Origin: Lachnospiraceae bacterium
GTDB lineage: Bacteria > Bacillota_A > Clostridia > Lachnospirales > Lachnospiraceae
Direction: 5' to 3'
Assembly (NCBI GenBank): GCA_031262285.1
Contig: JAISHZ010000073.1
Span: 1-10,006 of the forward strand
Length of the DNA stretch: 10,006 nucleotides
Program-made: the position numbers and the translations under genes
Notes under the pieces: generated by a model
The model's database searches: none
Told to the model about the DNA's origin: nothing
Seen by the model: only the letters and a program-made list of their open reading frames with translations
Shown here: piece after piece, positions 2,177-9,890 of the stretch
Position numbering within the stretch: position 1 is the first letter of the stretch
How the letters are laid out: every line of letters starts with the position of its first letter

Positions 2177-2292
2177 CCTTTCAAACGCCCTGATTTAGAT
2201 GCGCGCCATTGGCGCGCAGACGGGAGCTAGTTTGAAAGGAACCTTTCAAACGCCTTGATTTAAATGCGCGCCATTAGCGCGCAGACGGGAGC
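2177..2292 (+). repeat. Two-hairpin repeat, about 1.5 tandem copies, between the exporter genes
   Basis: The first copy (2177-2227) begins at the right arm of hairpin H1, whose left arm is lost or decayed. It continues through H2, GCGCGCC-ATT-GGCGCGC (2201-2217), to ACGGGAGC. The second copy (2230-2292) is complete. Its H1 is GTTTGAAAGG-AA-CCTTTCAAAC (2230-2251), and its H2 is GCGCGCC-ATT-AGCGCGC (2266-2282), with one mismatch at the loop. It ends in ACGGGAGC, five bases before the second exporter's ATG. Related copies lie on the other strand at 6945-7028 and 9704-9839. The repeat fills most of the intergenic gap, so it is presumably transcribed with the exporter genes. Confidence 0.9.
2287..2291 (+). 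promoter_or_regulatory. Ribosome binding site GGGAG supplied by the repeat
   Basis: GGGAG lies five bases before the ATG at 2297 and is the terminal module of the upstream repeat copy. It decides the start of the second exporter gene. The in-frame ATG at 2264 falls at the edge of the repeat's H2 stem and has no ribosome binding site. Confidence 0.75.
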
Positions 2293-2296
2293 AAAC

Positions 2297-4114
2297 ATGA
2301 AAAAATGCAAAGAATGGATCTCGTTGATTCGATCAACCCTACATATTGTACATAAATTAAACCCTGCGAAGGTTCCCGTTATGATCGGGAAAGCGATTTG
2401 TCGAATGGTTTTGTTTTTGTTAACCATAGCGATTAGCGTAGAGCTTATTAATTTATTTATGGAAGGAAAGAAAGCAGAGACCTTGTACCGTTTTTTGATG
2501 ATCTGTCTAGCGGGAAGATTGCTGTTTATGCTAGTGCAAGAATTGTTGGAGAAATTGGATAAGCTGGTTACCGAAAAGTGTCATTACCAATACCAACTAC
2601 AGAAGAGTCGACTATCCGTTCATTTACCATATCTAAAGTTGCAGGACCCGGAAATCATCAAGATACGATCCAGAATTCATACCAATGAAGCATATGGCAT
2701 AGAACTGACTCTGCTATTTCAAACTGTGGGGCAATGCATGGATAGCTTTGTGACGCTGGTGACCATCCCTCTGCTTATGATACCCCTTATGCCGGGGACA
2801 GGGTTGGGGTCTGGGATCGCGATTCCAATTTATATAGTGACAGCAGTTTTCCTGTCTGTAATGGCAGCCTCCGTACTGAAAAAGACTAATGAGAATTCGA
2901 TGAAGGCGATCATGGAAAGTGTACCGGAAAGGATCATTACCTCCGATTATTTGCTGTATGAAGGTGGTATCTCCTATAAAGACGGAAAAGATATCCGTCT
3001 GTCCGGATTGGGTCAAGTGATTCAAGAATATTGTCAATCTGCCATACAGGAGATGATGTCTTTTGAGAAAGTCAGCGGAACAATGGTGGGACTAGGCTCA
3101 GGACTAGTGGGTATGGTCAAGATCGTGATTTTAGGTAGTGCGTATATGGTGATCGCGATCGCAACCGGAGGTAAGCTTGAAACGGGAACTGTACTGATGT
3201 TGGCGGCGTTTTTGGCGCAAATCGTTCAAGCACTCATGACGATCATGGCACAGAACGGCAACTTTCAGAATGCAGCAGGTGCAATTCGTTTATACGACAC
3301 TTATGTGACGATGGGAAAAGACGAAGAAAAAGAAGAGGGTAAATCCCAACCGGATAAGATAACAGGGGATTATCGGATAGAATTTCGAGACGTATCATTT
3401 CGATATCCGGGCAAAGAAGCATATGCTTTGCAGCACCTATCCTGTCAGATTGAAAAAGGGATTCATTTAGCGATCGTAGGACCGAATGGTTCAGGTAAAA
3501 CCACTTTTATTTTATTGTTATGTGGTCTACTAAAACCCACAGAAGGGACGATTCTGTTCAATGGACTTGACGTAAGTCAGCTTAGCCTTACAGAATACCA
3601 AAAGCTGTTTAGTGTGGTATTTCAAGATTTTAGTATCTTTGCTTTACCATTAAGCGAAAATATTGCAGCTTCCCAAAACTATCAAGTCGCCGCGATAGAA
3701 GAATCCATCCGCCGGGCAGGGCTGTCAGAATTCTATGAAAAGTTGCCGAATAGAGAGTCCACCATCCTCTATAAAGACTATGATGATGGTGTGGTATTAT
3801 CAGGAGGAGAAGCGCAAAAAGTAGCACTGGCAAGAGCACTCTATAGGGACGCGCCCATTTTCATTTTGGATGAACCTACAGCAGCATTGGATCCCATAGC
3901 AGAACTGGAAATATTTCAATATATGCAACATAACATACAAGAGAAGACTGCCGTATTTATATCACATAGGTTATCTGCCTGCAAGCTTTGTGAAACCATT
4001 ATGGTCATGAACGAGGGAAAGCTAGTACAGGAAGGAAACCATGACACACTCTTGAAGGATAGCAATTCACTCTATGCTGCGATGTGGAACGCACAAGCGC
4101 AGTATTACCAGTAA
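2297..4114 (+). CDS. ABC exporter half-transporter (fused membrane and ATPase domains), second of a pair
   Basis: A 605-residue ABC exporter subunit, presumably the partner of the preceding gene. Hydrophobic segments lie near residues 27-53, 63-82, 145-190 (two) and 262-315 (two). The ATPase domain carries Walker A GPNGSGKTT (395-403, Lys401), signature LSGGE (501-505), Walker B IFILDE with Asp525 and catalytic Glu526, and switch His557. Both partners keep the Walker B glutamate and have the same LSGGE variant, so neither ATP site is visibly degenerate, unlike many heterodimeric exporters. The two proteins share the DEPTAALDPIAE stretch and similar C-termini (NAQAQYYQ and RAQSHYY), suggesting an old duplication. 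Translation starts at the ATG served by the GGGAG of the repeat. No maturation protease or immunity gene is adjacent, and the substrate is unknown. Confidence 0.92.
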   Translation: MKKCKEWISLIRSTLHIVHKLNPAKVPVMIGKAICRMVLFLLTIAISVELINLFMEGKKAETLYRFLMICLAGRLLFMLVQELLEKLDKLVTEKCHYQYQLQKSRLSVHLPYLKLQDPEIIKIRSRIHTNEAYGIELTLLFQTVGQCMDSFVTLVTIPLLMIPLMPGTGLGSGIAIPIYIVTAVFLSVMAASVLKKTNENSMKAIMESVPERIITSDYLLYEGGISYKDGKDIRLSGLGQVIQEYCQSAIQEMMSFEKVSGTMVGLGSGLVGMVKIVILGSAYMVIAIATGGKLETGTVLMLAAFLAQIVQALMTIMAQNGNFQNAAGAIRLYDTYVTMGKDEEKEEGKSQPDKITGDYRIEFRDVSFRYPGKEAYALQHLSCQIEKGIHLAIVGPNGSGKTTFILLLCGLLKPTEGTILFNGLDVSQLSLTEYQKLFSVVFQDFSIFALPLSENIAASQNYQVAAIEESIRRAGLSEFYEKLPNRESTILYKDYDDGVVLSGGEAQKVALARALYRDAPIFILDEPTAALDPIAELEIFQYMQHNIQEKTAVFISHRLSACKLCETIMVMNEGKLVQEGNHDTLLKDSNSLYAAMWNAQAQYYQ

Positions 4115-4167: not shown

Positions 4168-4240
4168 GAACCGAACAGAGTAGGGGACTGCTTTGGGTGT
4201 TAATCTAACACCCAAAGCAGTCCCCTACTCTGCTCGGTTC
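4168..4240. repeat. 73-nt near-perfect hairpin between convergent genes
   Basis: The left arm (4168-4202) and right arm (4206-4240) are 35 bases each, with one mismatch (A4175 against C4233) and a 3-nt ATC loop. It sits between the ends of the exporter pair and the arginine operon, where a bidirectional terminator is expected. However, neither strand has a T tract after the stem. A shorter outer inverted repeat, TCTACGTT (4141-4148) and AACGTAGA (4261-4268), flanks it. It could act as a terminator or RNA-stabilising structure, or be a palindromic MITE/REP-type element. I favour the second because of its length and near-perfect symmetry. Confidence 0.8.
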
Positions 4241-5732: not shown

Positions 5733-5741
5733 CCCTCCCTT
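5733..5741 (-). promoter_or_regulatory. Ribosome binding site overlapping the argD stop codon
   Basis: On the minus strand the argD stop TAA runs directly into GGGAGGG, about 11 bases before the ATG at 5721. The overlap suggests translational coupling of the solute-binding-like gene to argD. Confidence 0.6.
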
Positions 5742-6930
5742 AGGCATTCAGAAGAAGACACTCTTTTAAAATTGCACACATTTGATCGATATGCACTTTT
5801 TCAATGACCAGCGGAGGAATGAAACGCAATACGTGCGTACCTGCGTTGATCAAGATAAGCCCTCTTTCTCGTGCGAGGTTGATGATGTCAGCGACAGGGC
5901 GATCAAATTCCAATCCTTGCAACAAACCTGCGCCTCTTCTTTGTAGGACAAAGGGAAATTCCGTTACAAACGAGTCTAATTGTTCTTCCAGATAAGGGGT
6001 GATTTCTTGTACATGCTCCACAATATGGTTTTCTGCAAACAAGTCCAATACTTTTGTGACCGCGCAGCACGCCAATGGATTCCCACCATAGGTCGTTCCA
6101 TGATCTCCTGCGGATAGTGACGCGTCCGCCACGCGTTGGCTCATCAAGAAAGCACCGACAGGAACCCCACACCCAAGCGCTTTCGCACAAGTCATAATAT
6201 CCGGCTTTACACCAAATTTCTGCCATGCAAAAGGATAACCGGTTCTGCCCATCCCGCACTGGATTTCATCCAGTATCAACAATATATCATTTTTGTGGCA
6301 GAGTTCACGAACTGCAATTAGGAATTCTTCCGTCGCAGGATAAATCCCTCCTTCTCCCTGTACCGTCTCCATAATGATCGCGCAAGTCTTGTCGCTTAGG
6401 CAGGAGAGTACACTGTCAATGTCATTGAGTTGTGCAAAATGAATCTGTCCGATCATCGGTTCGAATGCTTCGCGATATTTCGCATTACCAGTTACGGATA
6501 GCGCACCAAATGTCCGACCATGAAAGGAATGGGAAAGTGCGATGATTTCATGATCCGTACGACCATCTTTGAGAAAAGCGTATTTTCGTGCAGCTTTTAA
6601 GGCGCCTTCAACAGCTTCCGCGCCGGAATTGGTAAAAAACACTCTGTCCAATCCGGACAATTTCGTCAGCTTTGTGGCGGCTTCCATCGCCGGAACATTA
6701 TAATAATAGTTCGAGGTATGAAGAAGCTTATCAATCTGCGTTTTCAAGGCGTTATCGTAATCTTGATAATGATATCCTAAAGCAAAAACGCCAATGCCGG
6801 ATACAAAATCCAGATACTTTTTCCCTTCTATATCATATAAATAGACACCGTCCCCCCGATCCAAAACGAGCGGATAACGATTATATGTGTGCAGCAACAC
6901 TTGTTCTGCTTGTGTAATTATTGTTTCCAT
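5740..6930 (-). CDS. argD: Acetylornithine aminotransferase
   Basis: A PLP-dependent class III aminotransferase that interconverts N-acetylglutamate semialdehyde and N2-acetylornithine using glutamate as amino donor, in cytoplasmic arginine synthesis. The protein has 396 residues, normal for ArgD. Visible motifs are NSGAEA (101-106), the SFHGRT substrate/PLP region (135-140), LLILDEIQCGMGRTG (217-231) with Asp221 for the PLP ring nitrogen, the PLP Schiff-base Lys250 in TCAKALGCG, and HGTTYGGNPLA (277-287). The frame is open for 24 codons upstream, but that part is the translated repeat. A GGAGG seven bases before the ATG at 6930 fixes the start. It lies downstream of argB and argJ on the same strand. 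Related succinylornithine or ornithine/GABA transaminases share the fold; the operon decides for ArgD. Confidence 0.95.
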   Translation of the reverse strand: METIITQAEQVLLHTYNRYPLVLDRGDGVYLYDIEGKKYLDFVSGIGVFALGYHYQDYDNALKTQIDKLLHTSNYYYNVPAMEAATKLTKLSGLDRVFFTNSGAEAVEGALKAARKYAFLKDGRTDHEIIALSHSFHGRTFGALSVTGNAKYREAFEPMIGQIHFAQLNDIDSVLSCLSDKTCAIIMETVQGEGGIYPATEEFLIAVRELCHKNDILLILDEIQCGMGRTGYPFAWQKFGVKPDIMTCAKALGCGVPVGAFLMSQRVADASLSAGDHGTTYGGNPLACCAVTKVLDLFAENHIVEHVQEITPYLEEQLDSFVTEFPFVLQRRGAGLLQGLEFDRPVADIINLARERGLILINAGTHVLRFIPPLVIEKVHIDQMCAILKECLLLNA

Positions 6931-6937
6931 GATATTT

Positions 6938-6942
6938 CCTCC
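6938..6942 (-). promoter_or_regulatory. Ribosome binding site GGAGG of argD
   Basis: GGAGG lies seven bases before the ATG at 6930. Here the repeat ends in ACAAACTGGAGG rather than ACGGGAGC, so the binding site is stronger and nearer to the start than the repeat's usual end. It excludes the longer frame beginning at 7002. Confidence 0.8.
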
Positions 6943-6944
6943 AG

Positions 6945-7028
6945 TTTGTGCGCCAACGGCGCGCGTACCAATCAAGGTGTTTGAAAGTTCACTTACTTTC
7001 AAACTTGCTCCCGTCTACGAGCGGCGCA
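6945..7028 (-). repeat. Two-hairpin repeat: one full copy and one truncated copy, between argB and argD
   Basis: In the gene orientation the full copy has H1 GTTTGAAAGT-AAGTGA-ACTTTCAAAC (7004-6979), then ACCTTGATTGGTAC, then H2 GCGCGCC-GTT-GGCGCAC (6964-6948), which has one mismatched pair. Upstream lies a truncated unit (7028-7007) that keeps AGACGGGAGC but has a collapsed H2, GCGCCGCTCGT. The block fills most of the 115-nt gap between the argB stop and the argD ATG. Confidence 0.88.
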
Positions 7029-9240: not shown

Positions 9241-9699
9241 CTAAACCGTTTCACTGGTATTTCGTTCATCCAGTGTAAAATCATAATAATTGATATCACT
9301 ACGTTTTGTCCACAAAAGTTTCGTCCAAAAACCATTCCCTAAATCATTTTTGGTAAACGCGATCAGTTTCACTTTCGTGATTCCAACTTTACGAAGTGCT
9401 TCCACACAGTAAGTAACCATTGCTTTCCCTACCCCGCAGCAACGATACTGTTCTTGCACACAGACATGATACAAACAACCCTGCCTTCCATCATGTCCGC
9501 ACAAAATAGCGCCAATCAATTGATCTTGCGCAACGGCCGCCACACTCAAAGAAGGATTGCGATCCAAGAAACGCTCGATTCCTTCTTTGGAATCGTCTAC
9601 GTAACGAATCGAAAAACCCTTGATACTTTTCCACAGAGCATATAGTTCTTGATAATCAGTTGCTGCAAGAGGACGAAGATCAAATGCTTTCTTTTTCAT
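9241..9699 (-). CDS. GNAT-family N-acetyltransferase, first gene of the arginine operon
   Basis: A 152-residue single-domain acetyl-CoA-dependent acetyltransferase. The acetyl-CoA-binding motif A is seen as YHVCVQEQYRCCGVGKAM (77-94), with the R-x-x-G-x-G loop at Arg86-Gly91, preceded by the GAILCGHDGRQGCL strand region (63-76). Motif B is the NDLGNGFWTKLLW region (118-130), like YpeA/RimI-type proteins. It is far shorter than classical ArgA, having no amino-acid-kinase domain. Its place directly behind the operator and promoter of the arg genes, 23 nt before argJ, makes an acetylglutamate-related role possible, but the substrate cannot be read from the sequence. The reading frame continues 46 codons upstream through two repeat copies with no in-frame stop. 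The ATG at 9699, five bases after GGGAG, is the credible start. Confidence 0.85.
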   Translation of the reverse strand: MKKKAFDLRPLAATDYQELYALWKSIKGFSIRYVDDSKEGIERFLDRNPSLSVAAVAQDQLIGAILCGHDGRQGCLYHVCVQEQYRCCGVGKAMVTYCVEALRKVGITKVKLIAFTKNDLGNGFWTKLLWTKRSDINYYDFTLDERNTSETV

Positions 9700-9703
9700 A
9701 GAT

Positions 9704-9839
9704 GCTCCCGTTTGCGCGCCAAAGGCGCGCGTACCAATCAAGGAGTTTGAAAGTTCCCTTACTTTCAAACTTGCTCCCGTTTGCGCGCCAAAGGCGCGCG
9801 TATCAATCAAGGAGTTTGAAAGTTCCCTTACTTTCAAAC
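9704..9839 (-). repeat. Two-hairpin repeat, two tandem 69-bp units, in the arg operon leader
   Basis: The two units (9773-9839 distal and 9704-9770 proximal, period 69) differ at a single base: C9734 in the proximal unit corresponds to T9803 in the distal one. In gene orientation each has H1 GTTTGAAAGT-AAGGGA-ACTTTCAAAC (9839-9814 and 9770-9745), CTCCTTGATTGRTAC, H2 GCGCGCC-TTT-GGCGCGC (9799-9783 and 9730-9714) and AAACGGGAGC. The period is 23 codons and neither unit has a stop in the frame of the downstream gene. The proximal unit's GGGAG is the ribosome binding site of the acetyltransferase gene. The near identity indicates recent tandem duplication or gene conversion. Confidence 0.95.
9705..9709 (-). 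promoter_or_regulatory. Ribosome binding site GGGAG supplied by the repeat
   Basis: GGGAG lies five bases before the ATG at 9699 and forms the end of the proximal repeat unit. It fixes the acetyltransferase start and repeats the arrangement seen before the second exporter gene. Confidence 0.75.
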
Positions 9840-9890
9840 TTGCTTTCTTGGGCTCTTGTTGTTGCTCATTCTGACTGTGAACTTCGTATC

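Follow-up and report, generated by a model that had tools for sequence, protein, structure and literature searches.

A repeated two-hairpin sequence stands immediately before the start codons of three genes in a 10,006 nt stretch of DNA from a Lachnospiraceae bacterium (contig JAISHZ010000073.1; the whole stretch is termed the window here). This raises the question of whether the repeat is a mobile palindromic element that inserts in gene leaders or a post-transcriptional control element shared by the genes, both of which had been proposed in an earlier, sequence-only reading. The present analysis favours the former. With a probability of about 65%, the repeat is a palindromic mobile element of the non-autonomous kind, which inserts at translation starts and provides a new ribosome-binding site there.

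The window has five units, of which four are complete and one is truncated, together with a decayed remnant, as determined by direct reading, alignment and repeat search; all units are in the sense orientation relative to the next gene. The three downstream genes are assigned from open reading frames and protein family matches. On the plus strand, U1 and U2 precede an exporter-like permease/ATPase gene (2297–4114), which comes second in a pair of ABC transporter genes. U1 (2177–2226) is truncated and has no 5′ arm of the first hairpin, H1; it consists of the 3′ arm of H1, a CCTGATT spacer, the second hairpin, H2, at 2201–2217 and a GGGAG at 2222–2226, and is found by reading, repeat search, alignment and a core pattern. 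U2 (2229–2292; reading, alignment and folding) is complete, with H1 at 2230–2251 (4 nt loop), the spacer, H2 at 2266–2282 and GGGAG at 2287–2291, and the covariance model R1 matches it at 2229–2294 with 75 bits. The other two loci are on the minus strand. The gene argD (5740–6930), encoding acetylornithine transaminase (TIGR00707 above cut-off), is preceded by the complete unit U3 (6936–7005; reading, alignment and folding; 71 bits with R1). Next to U3 is the decayed remnant of a preceding unit (∼7006–7028), an H2 remnant with ACGGGAGC that aligns to the end of other units. A GNAT acetyltransferase gene (9241–9699) has two complete units before it, U4 (9702–9771; reading, repeat search, alignment and folding; 79.5 bits with R1) and a tandem copy 69 nt upstream, U5 (9771–9840; reading, repeat search and alignment). 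A sense-oriented repeat family just before start codons at three loci, as had been described, is thus borne out by reading, alignment, repeat search and a shuffle control. The five copies or fragments counted earlier are present as five units, but the count is amended in that U1 is truncated, four units are complete and the argD remnant is additional.

A complete unit in the window has an H1 hairpin, a C-Y-TGATT spacer and a GC-rich H2 hairpin followed by A(G/A)ACGGGAGC or, at argD, a variant of it. Unit length is ∼65 nt at the exporter locus and 69 nt at the other two. The element consensus is ∼60–70 nt and reads H1 hairpin, C(T)CYTGATT spacer, H2 hairpin and AGAYGGGAGNA. Each unit carries its own GGGAG at its end (GGAGG at argD), and that of the last unit in each window array is 5–7 nt 5′ of the ATG (2297 for the exporter, 6930 for argD and 9699 for the GNAT gene). 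The layout proposed previously, H1, CTTGATT, H2 and an end module, is therefore kept, with the correction that its end module represents a Shine-Dalgarno (SD) sequence. The last H1 pair covaries, as had been noted, with AAAGG/CCTTT at the exporter and AAAGT/ACTTT at the other two loci. Folding z-scores against shuffled sequence are −4.1 for U2, −3.0 for U3 and −3.5 for U4. Elsewhere in the window, a near-perfect palindrome at 4168–4240 (35 nt arms, 97% complementary, 3 nt loop) lies between convergent genes for a transporter and a solute-binding protein; it is perhaps a terminator or another palindromic repeat.

Related copies are found in other Lachnospiraceae. A pattern scan of genome contigs yielded 52 stretches; when all were read, 51 appeared chance-like and one, L008 from Lachnospiraceae bacterium S29_Bin8 (genome G001), was a true relative with the same plan and a different H1, placed before an ATG. 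With a stricter pattern applied to 299 genomes of the family, there were 19 matches in G001, 12 in a second genome (G108), one in G226 and none in the remaining 296; the single G226 match is not supported by R1. The R1 model, which contains one erroneous extra pair (columns 60 and 69), gives at least 156 matches in G001 and at least 164 in G108, these being lower bounds from 150 first-look candidates scored per genome. Long contigs totalling 2.28 Mb contain 202 units by nhmmer, of which 83 come from G001 (1.11 Mb) and 119 from G108 (1.17 Mb). Extrapolation from these contigs, which were selected by length, gives copy numbers of ∼320 in G001 and ∼365 in G108, both draft genomes. About 16 of the listed G001 and G108 units fall in the first 150 nt of contigs. 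Units at contig ends indicate that the repeats break assemblies, and therefore the true copy numbers are probably higher.

The proposal that the family is a chance similarity or an assembly artefact deserves almost no credence. Several copies do occur at contig ends, as would be the case for any repeat. Against this, the core pattern has eight overlapping matches at the five window units and none in 200 dinucleotide-preserving shuffles, and a reversed-pattern control gave no match in any genome scanned. In addition, a covariance model built without the extra pair (R2) finds at least one copy in 11 of the 299 sampled family genomes at E ≤ 1e-7; this survey used stricter filters with 17 candidates scored per genome, and its counts are lower bounds. 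Among the 13 genomes of the genus of G001, the same six carriers are recognized by R1 (E ≤ 1e-5) and by R2 (E ≤ 1e-6), two with many copies and four with few, and the other seven species are without the element at these thresholds. Six carriers versus seven non-carriers in the genus, and 11 of 299 genomes in the family, lead to the conclusion that the element is patchy in distribution and abundant in some species.

The closest argD to that of the window among the matches listed is 74% identical (397 sampled family genomes, 369 with a match), and R1 finds no element in the eight closest genomes that were searched. Where 30 argD loci were compared, the element matches only at the G108 locus, and weakly. 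Seven pairs of units from different loci (four locus pairs) differ at only 1–3 of 64 nt, and three identical pairs are each situated within arrays. Two element patterns gave no match in viral contigs (an earlier first scan had produced three chance matches inside other sequence), and one unit used as query gave none in plasmid and phage collections; carriage by phage or plasmid is therefore disfavoured.

The copies are biased in position and strand. In the 2.28 Mb of G001 and G108, a start codon comes next after 118 of the 202 units and another unit after 44, with neither after the other 40. Because a loose start test has a 24% chance rate, only a tight test (ATG at +2 to +5, open reading frame of at least 100 amino acids) is informative. 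It is satisfied by 101 of the 202 units, versus 2.4% of random positions (984 of 40400) and 3.0% of control GGGAGC words outside elements (53 of 1738). In four further species of the genus, an ATG is located 1–4 nt 3′ of the match at all 23 listed loci. Nine further genomes of the family have a start codon at this distance at 16 of 22 loci; three of the other six have a start at 7–9 nt, one is followed by another unit and at two nothing was recognized. A search of the relatives for copies lacking positional or orientation bias, or for stems decaying without compensation, thus gave the opposite result.

A few of the 40 units followed by neither a start nor another unit are mirror matches of palindromes. 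Related copies in G001 at L126 (4242 and 4422), L129 (5031), L134 (6840) and L253 (15163) have no recognized start after them and are apparently not at gene starts. Several of these are followed by another hairpin (e.g. ATAGGCC...GGCCTAT), and the H1 sequence GTGAAATCTTCGATTTCAC occurs in both L126 and L129.

The genes downstream are of many kinds. Ten proteins were sampled from 21 references, themselves every fifth of 101. Seven match Pfam families, all different, and comprise a glycosyltransferase, a TIM barrel protein, an ammonium transporter, an undecaprenyl diphosphate synthase, an RlmN-type radical SAM protein, a sugar transferase and a GH32 protein; the other three have no match at E ≤ 1e-10. 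In one genome (G301), a ZTP riboswitch (RF01750, 54 bits) is present ∼65 nt upstream of the element in the same leader (L158, 1710–1632 and 1566–1501, minus strand), and so insertion may separate a riboswitch from its gene.

Many units begin with TTGAAA behind an SD and can be read into the gene that follows; U3, U4 and U5 of the window read through in frame with the next gene. The element might then be an in-frame coding repeat, comparable to palindromic repeats that invade proteins. Rickettsia palindromic elements (RPE) are palindromic mobile repeats associated with genes, in frame and translated. They are listed in a review of bacterial small repeats (PMC2229807). The element differs from RPEs in that neither its reading frames nor its stop codons are conserved. 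An in-frame stop interrupts 48 of the 81 units that begin with TTGAAA. The remaining 33 stay open; 13 of them share the frame of the next ATG and six do not. Distances between units (40 and 61–71 nt) occur in all three phases (22, 15 and 9), and the frame of CTTGATT differs between L008 and the window. A coding function is accordingly very improbable.

What appears to be conserved is structure. In an alignment of 62 different sequences (G001, G108 and window), 93.8% of cells are paired and the covariation score is 0.285, versus 0.116 in shuffled alignments. With four more species added, a set of 54 sequences has 91.7% of cells paired versus 79.7% when shuffled, and 14 of the 17 pairs in H1 and H2 show changes on both sides; the covariation score is 0.321, compared with 0.121 for shuffled alignments and at most 0.086 for slid structures. 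The alignments were fitted to the model structure and the counts hence lean towards it, but the slid and shuffled controls are far below. As an example, the second H1 pair is found as A-U, G-C, U-A, C-G and G-U. Both hairpins covary in the two multi-species alignments, and selection for structure, which had been suggested from the window copies, is strongly supported.

H1 letters tend to agree within a species, e.g. AGAGTGAAAG/CTTTCACTCT in G301 and AGGCTGAAAG/CTTTCAGCCT in G310. Largely kept across genera are the TGAA of the 5′ arm, the CYTGATT and AGATGGGAG. Often found 5′ of the unit (L077, L083, L069 and L073) is a second hairpin module, TTATTGGCAGCAGTATCG...TGCCTGCGATATGCAGGGGTATA or a related sequence, whose end resembles an SD. 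At L084 such a module is directly before an ATG and represents another family of start-codon repeats in these genomes. At L125 (reverse strand, before 14207) and L206, H1 is joined to yet another second module (GAATTTGGGCCTATTCCCGTTTGGGGAAGACCCAAAACGGGAAGGGCATGGGAATAAAT) before an ATG. Judging from these arrangements, modules seem to be exchangeable.

Conserved structure at the SD is also what a cis-regulatory RNA leader would display. H1, the CUCC(U/C) segment and H2 could form a switch in which CUCCY pairs with RGGAG and masks the SD, controlling many genes by a common signal or protein, with copies spread by selection as a regulon. The sense-only placement right at the SD, the H1 and H2 covariation and the conservation of the unpaired CYTGATT and AGATGGGAG agree with such a role. 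In many units the four positions 5′ of YTGATT read CTCC (C 99, T 81, C 110 and C 117 of 149), and in the minimum-energy folds predicted for five units the SD is paired, at least in part, in four (U2, U3, L073 and L140, not U4). The presence of the element in both genomes at four of 20 orthologous loci, in some cases with different stems, is likewise compatible. The masking itself is not supported. In the 149 of 307 segments that were parsed, the bases immediately 5′ of TGATT and of GGAG show no covariation (75/14/43/11; Fisher p = 0.50; 143 of the 149 units). The mean unpaired probability of GGAG is 0.45 in 89 element leaders versus 0.49 in 250 sampled control genes (p = 0.29). Moreover, the genes concerned are of various kinds and are frequently not the same in related species, and the absence from seven of the 13 species at the thresholds used also counts against this reading. 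With no covariation between anti-SD and SD, and an SD as accessible as elsewhere, a regulatory role is not supported and is considered unlikely. Of the shared control element suggested in the sequence-only reading, SD masking thus finds no backing in covariation or accessibility; regulation in some other form may still occur.

Comparison of orthologous sites provides evidence that the element was inserted. Between G001 and G108, 24 of 112 downstream proteins have an orthologous start in the compared part of the other genome. These 24 query pairs represent 20 loci, because the four loci with an element in both genomes, some with different stems, are counted from each side. The other 16 loci were called empty automatically; on re-reading, five look free of repeats, five have another hairpin module and six have a weak copy or a remnant. 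The different module is present at the orthologous starts in L226 (before 7559), L227 (before 19817), L143 (before 17031), L125 and L126 (before 1029), and these five leaders look as if they had been reoccupied repeatedly. Other modules, weak copies and remnants at supposedly empty loci show that leaders frequently undergo turnover and do not fall into just two states, filled or empty.

Two of the empty sites are clean. In the comparison of L231 (G108) with L137 (G001), an element of ∼60 nt lies between the common flanks ...AAACTAAAGGAGAA and ATCATGAAAAACATC, and the insert sits between AAAGGAGAA and ATCATG. At ispH, both G108 and G306 have TAATG, an overlap of stop and start codons; in G001, an H2 piece followed by one whole unit separates TAA from ATG. 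A third site is fair: L223 (G001) and L230 (G108) share the flanks GGATCGGAAAG and AAGCGTG, between which one genome has a unit consisting of H2 alone and the other has 11 different letters. As read from the two clean sites and the fair one, insertion is between the native SD and the start codon, or between a stop and a start codon. The genomes compared are drafts of related species and not of strains, so that no insertion event is observed directly. Inspection reveals no exact target duplication at the two clean sites; GGAG-like words flank L231, and the right one is the element's own.

SD-like words are frequent on the 5′ side of other copies as well. Such a word occurs in the 14 nt 5′ of H1 in 37 of the 54 units that have no detected unit before them, versus 8–16 of 54 at six control offsets. 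Some of these 54 visibly follow a remnant unit or a second module, and after a rough filter for these, 19 of 31 have the word versus 6–12 of 31 at control offsets. The enrichment fits insertion behind an SD, either native or from an earlier copy. The sequence-only reading had missed two points, namely the SD nature of the end module and the insertion of the element into the gap 5′ of the start codon. Its suggestion of a mobile palindromic element inserting in leaders gains favour from the empty orthologous sites, only two of which are clean.

Does the element belong to a known family? Rfam has no match over the window element at the gathering score, and none over the element in L302, L303, L305, L158 and L073 (E ≤ 1). 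Like riboswitches and ribosomal-protein leaders, it is a structured 5′ leader adjoining an SD, but unlike these it has no Rfam match, hundreds of copies, a mixture of target genes and presence/absence at the species level. Among the matches listed in the open-licence PMC literature (titles and beginnings of abstracts), no description of the element was found. BOX elements of Streptococcus pneumoniae are modular hairpin repeats in leaders, with variable numbers of tandem modules. By that general description the element resembles BOX in its modular leader hairpins and variable tandem number, and BOX is not known to be placed between SD and start codon.

With MITE-type repeats such as RUP, Correia/NEMIS and ERIC the element shares small size, a non-autonomous nature and the formation of stem-loop RNA when transcribed, as well as presence/absence at orthologous sites (clean at ispH and L231/L137, with five of 16 loci apparently repeat-free in the other genome). 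These MITE-type repeats are given with terminal inverted repeats and target duplications (PMC2229807). By inspection, terminal inverted repeats are not found in the element: AGNNTGAAA and GGGAGNA, at the two ends of a unit, lack complementarity. The main text of the same review (PMC2229807) contains neither 'ribosome binding' nor 'start codon' as a term.

The REP/REPIN-RAYT systems are similar in being short, dispersed and palindromic, with hundreds of copies, conserved hairpins and clusters. The element differs in its one fixed orientation at translation starts and in the SD at its end. In addition, a REPIN is an inverted doublet of one palindrome, whereas the element is asymmetric and its H1 and H2 differ in sequence. 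One may nevertheless consider a REP/REPIN-like element moved on single-stranded hairpins by an IS200/IS605-type Y1 (RAYT) transposase. Covarying hairpins are in keeping with this, and TTGAT is reportedly the target of one IS200/IS605 element. The Y1 transposase family PF01797 is present in 11 of the 13 other carrier genomes, but the two richest, G001 and G108, and the carriers G088 and G165 have no match, these being drafts that may be incomplete. A random distribution over extragenic space is described for REPIN doublets (PMC3116915), and the copies of the element are not evenly spread in this way. A RAYT-driven origin is thus quite improbable. By the tests made, the element is not a REPIN, a MITE or an Rfam family.

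Reverse transcriptase was considered as an obvious partner and is disfavoured: 13 of 15 genomes have PF00078, whether or not they carry the element. It has no match in the carriers G108 and G088, two genomes that match neither PF00078 nor PF01797, although drafts may be incomplete. The searches with these two families thus yielded no mobilizing enzyme.

The reading preferred here, a mobile element specific for translation starts, can be put together as follows. Support for past insertions comes from the clean sites, the number of copies and the patchy distribution. The element would insert one way round in the gap between the native SD and the start codon, or alternatively directly before a start codon that overlaps an upstream stop codon. 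Because the unit ends with its own SD, the host gene would stay translated, from the ribosome-binding site of the element, and translation presumably initiates at this new SD. Further insertion behind the new SD, or slippage, would give rise to tandem arrays of ∼66 nt. Movement was probably by active transposition, and the element may be active at present. Stem letters differ between species while pairing is kept, which suggests recognition of structure and not of stem sequence. The landing before start codons suggests targeting rather than selection after random insertion.

A bolder version of this scheme makes the SD itself the insertion target. The anti-SD-like CUCC(U/C) at the foot of H1 would pair with the host SD, in single-stranded DNA or mRNA, and guide insertion just behind it; the enzyme would read the hairpin shape and not the stem letters, and each new SD would become the next target, leading to arrays. 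Starts would then have been re-wired for perhaps one gene in 20, a figure obtained from 118 starts in 2.28 Mb on the assumption of about one gene per kb. This specific route is speculative and unlikely.

If the main reading is correct, a selfish repeat with its own ribosome-binding site would explain how hundreds of insertions can be made beside genes without losing them. Some of the affected genes, such as cmk and ispH (identities read from the proteins), are probably essential. The finding raises the question of which enzyme or process recognizes the gap before a start codon. The carriers would also represent a natural and repeated experiment in the swapping of 5′ leaders, with sister species available for comparison.
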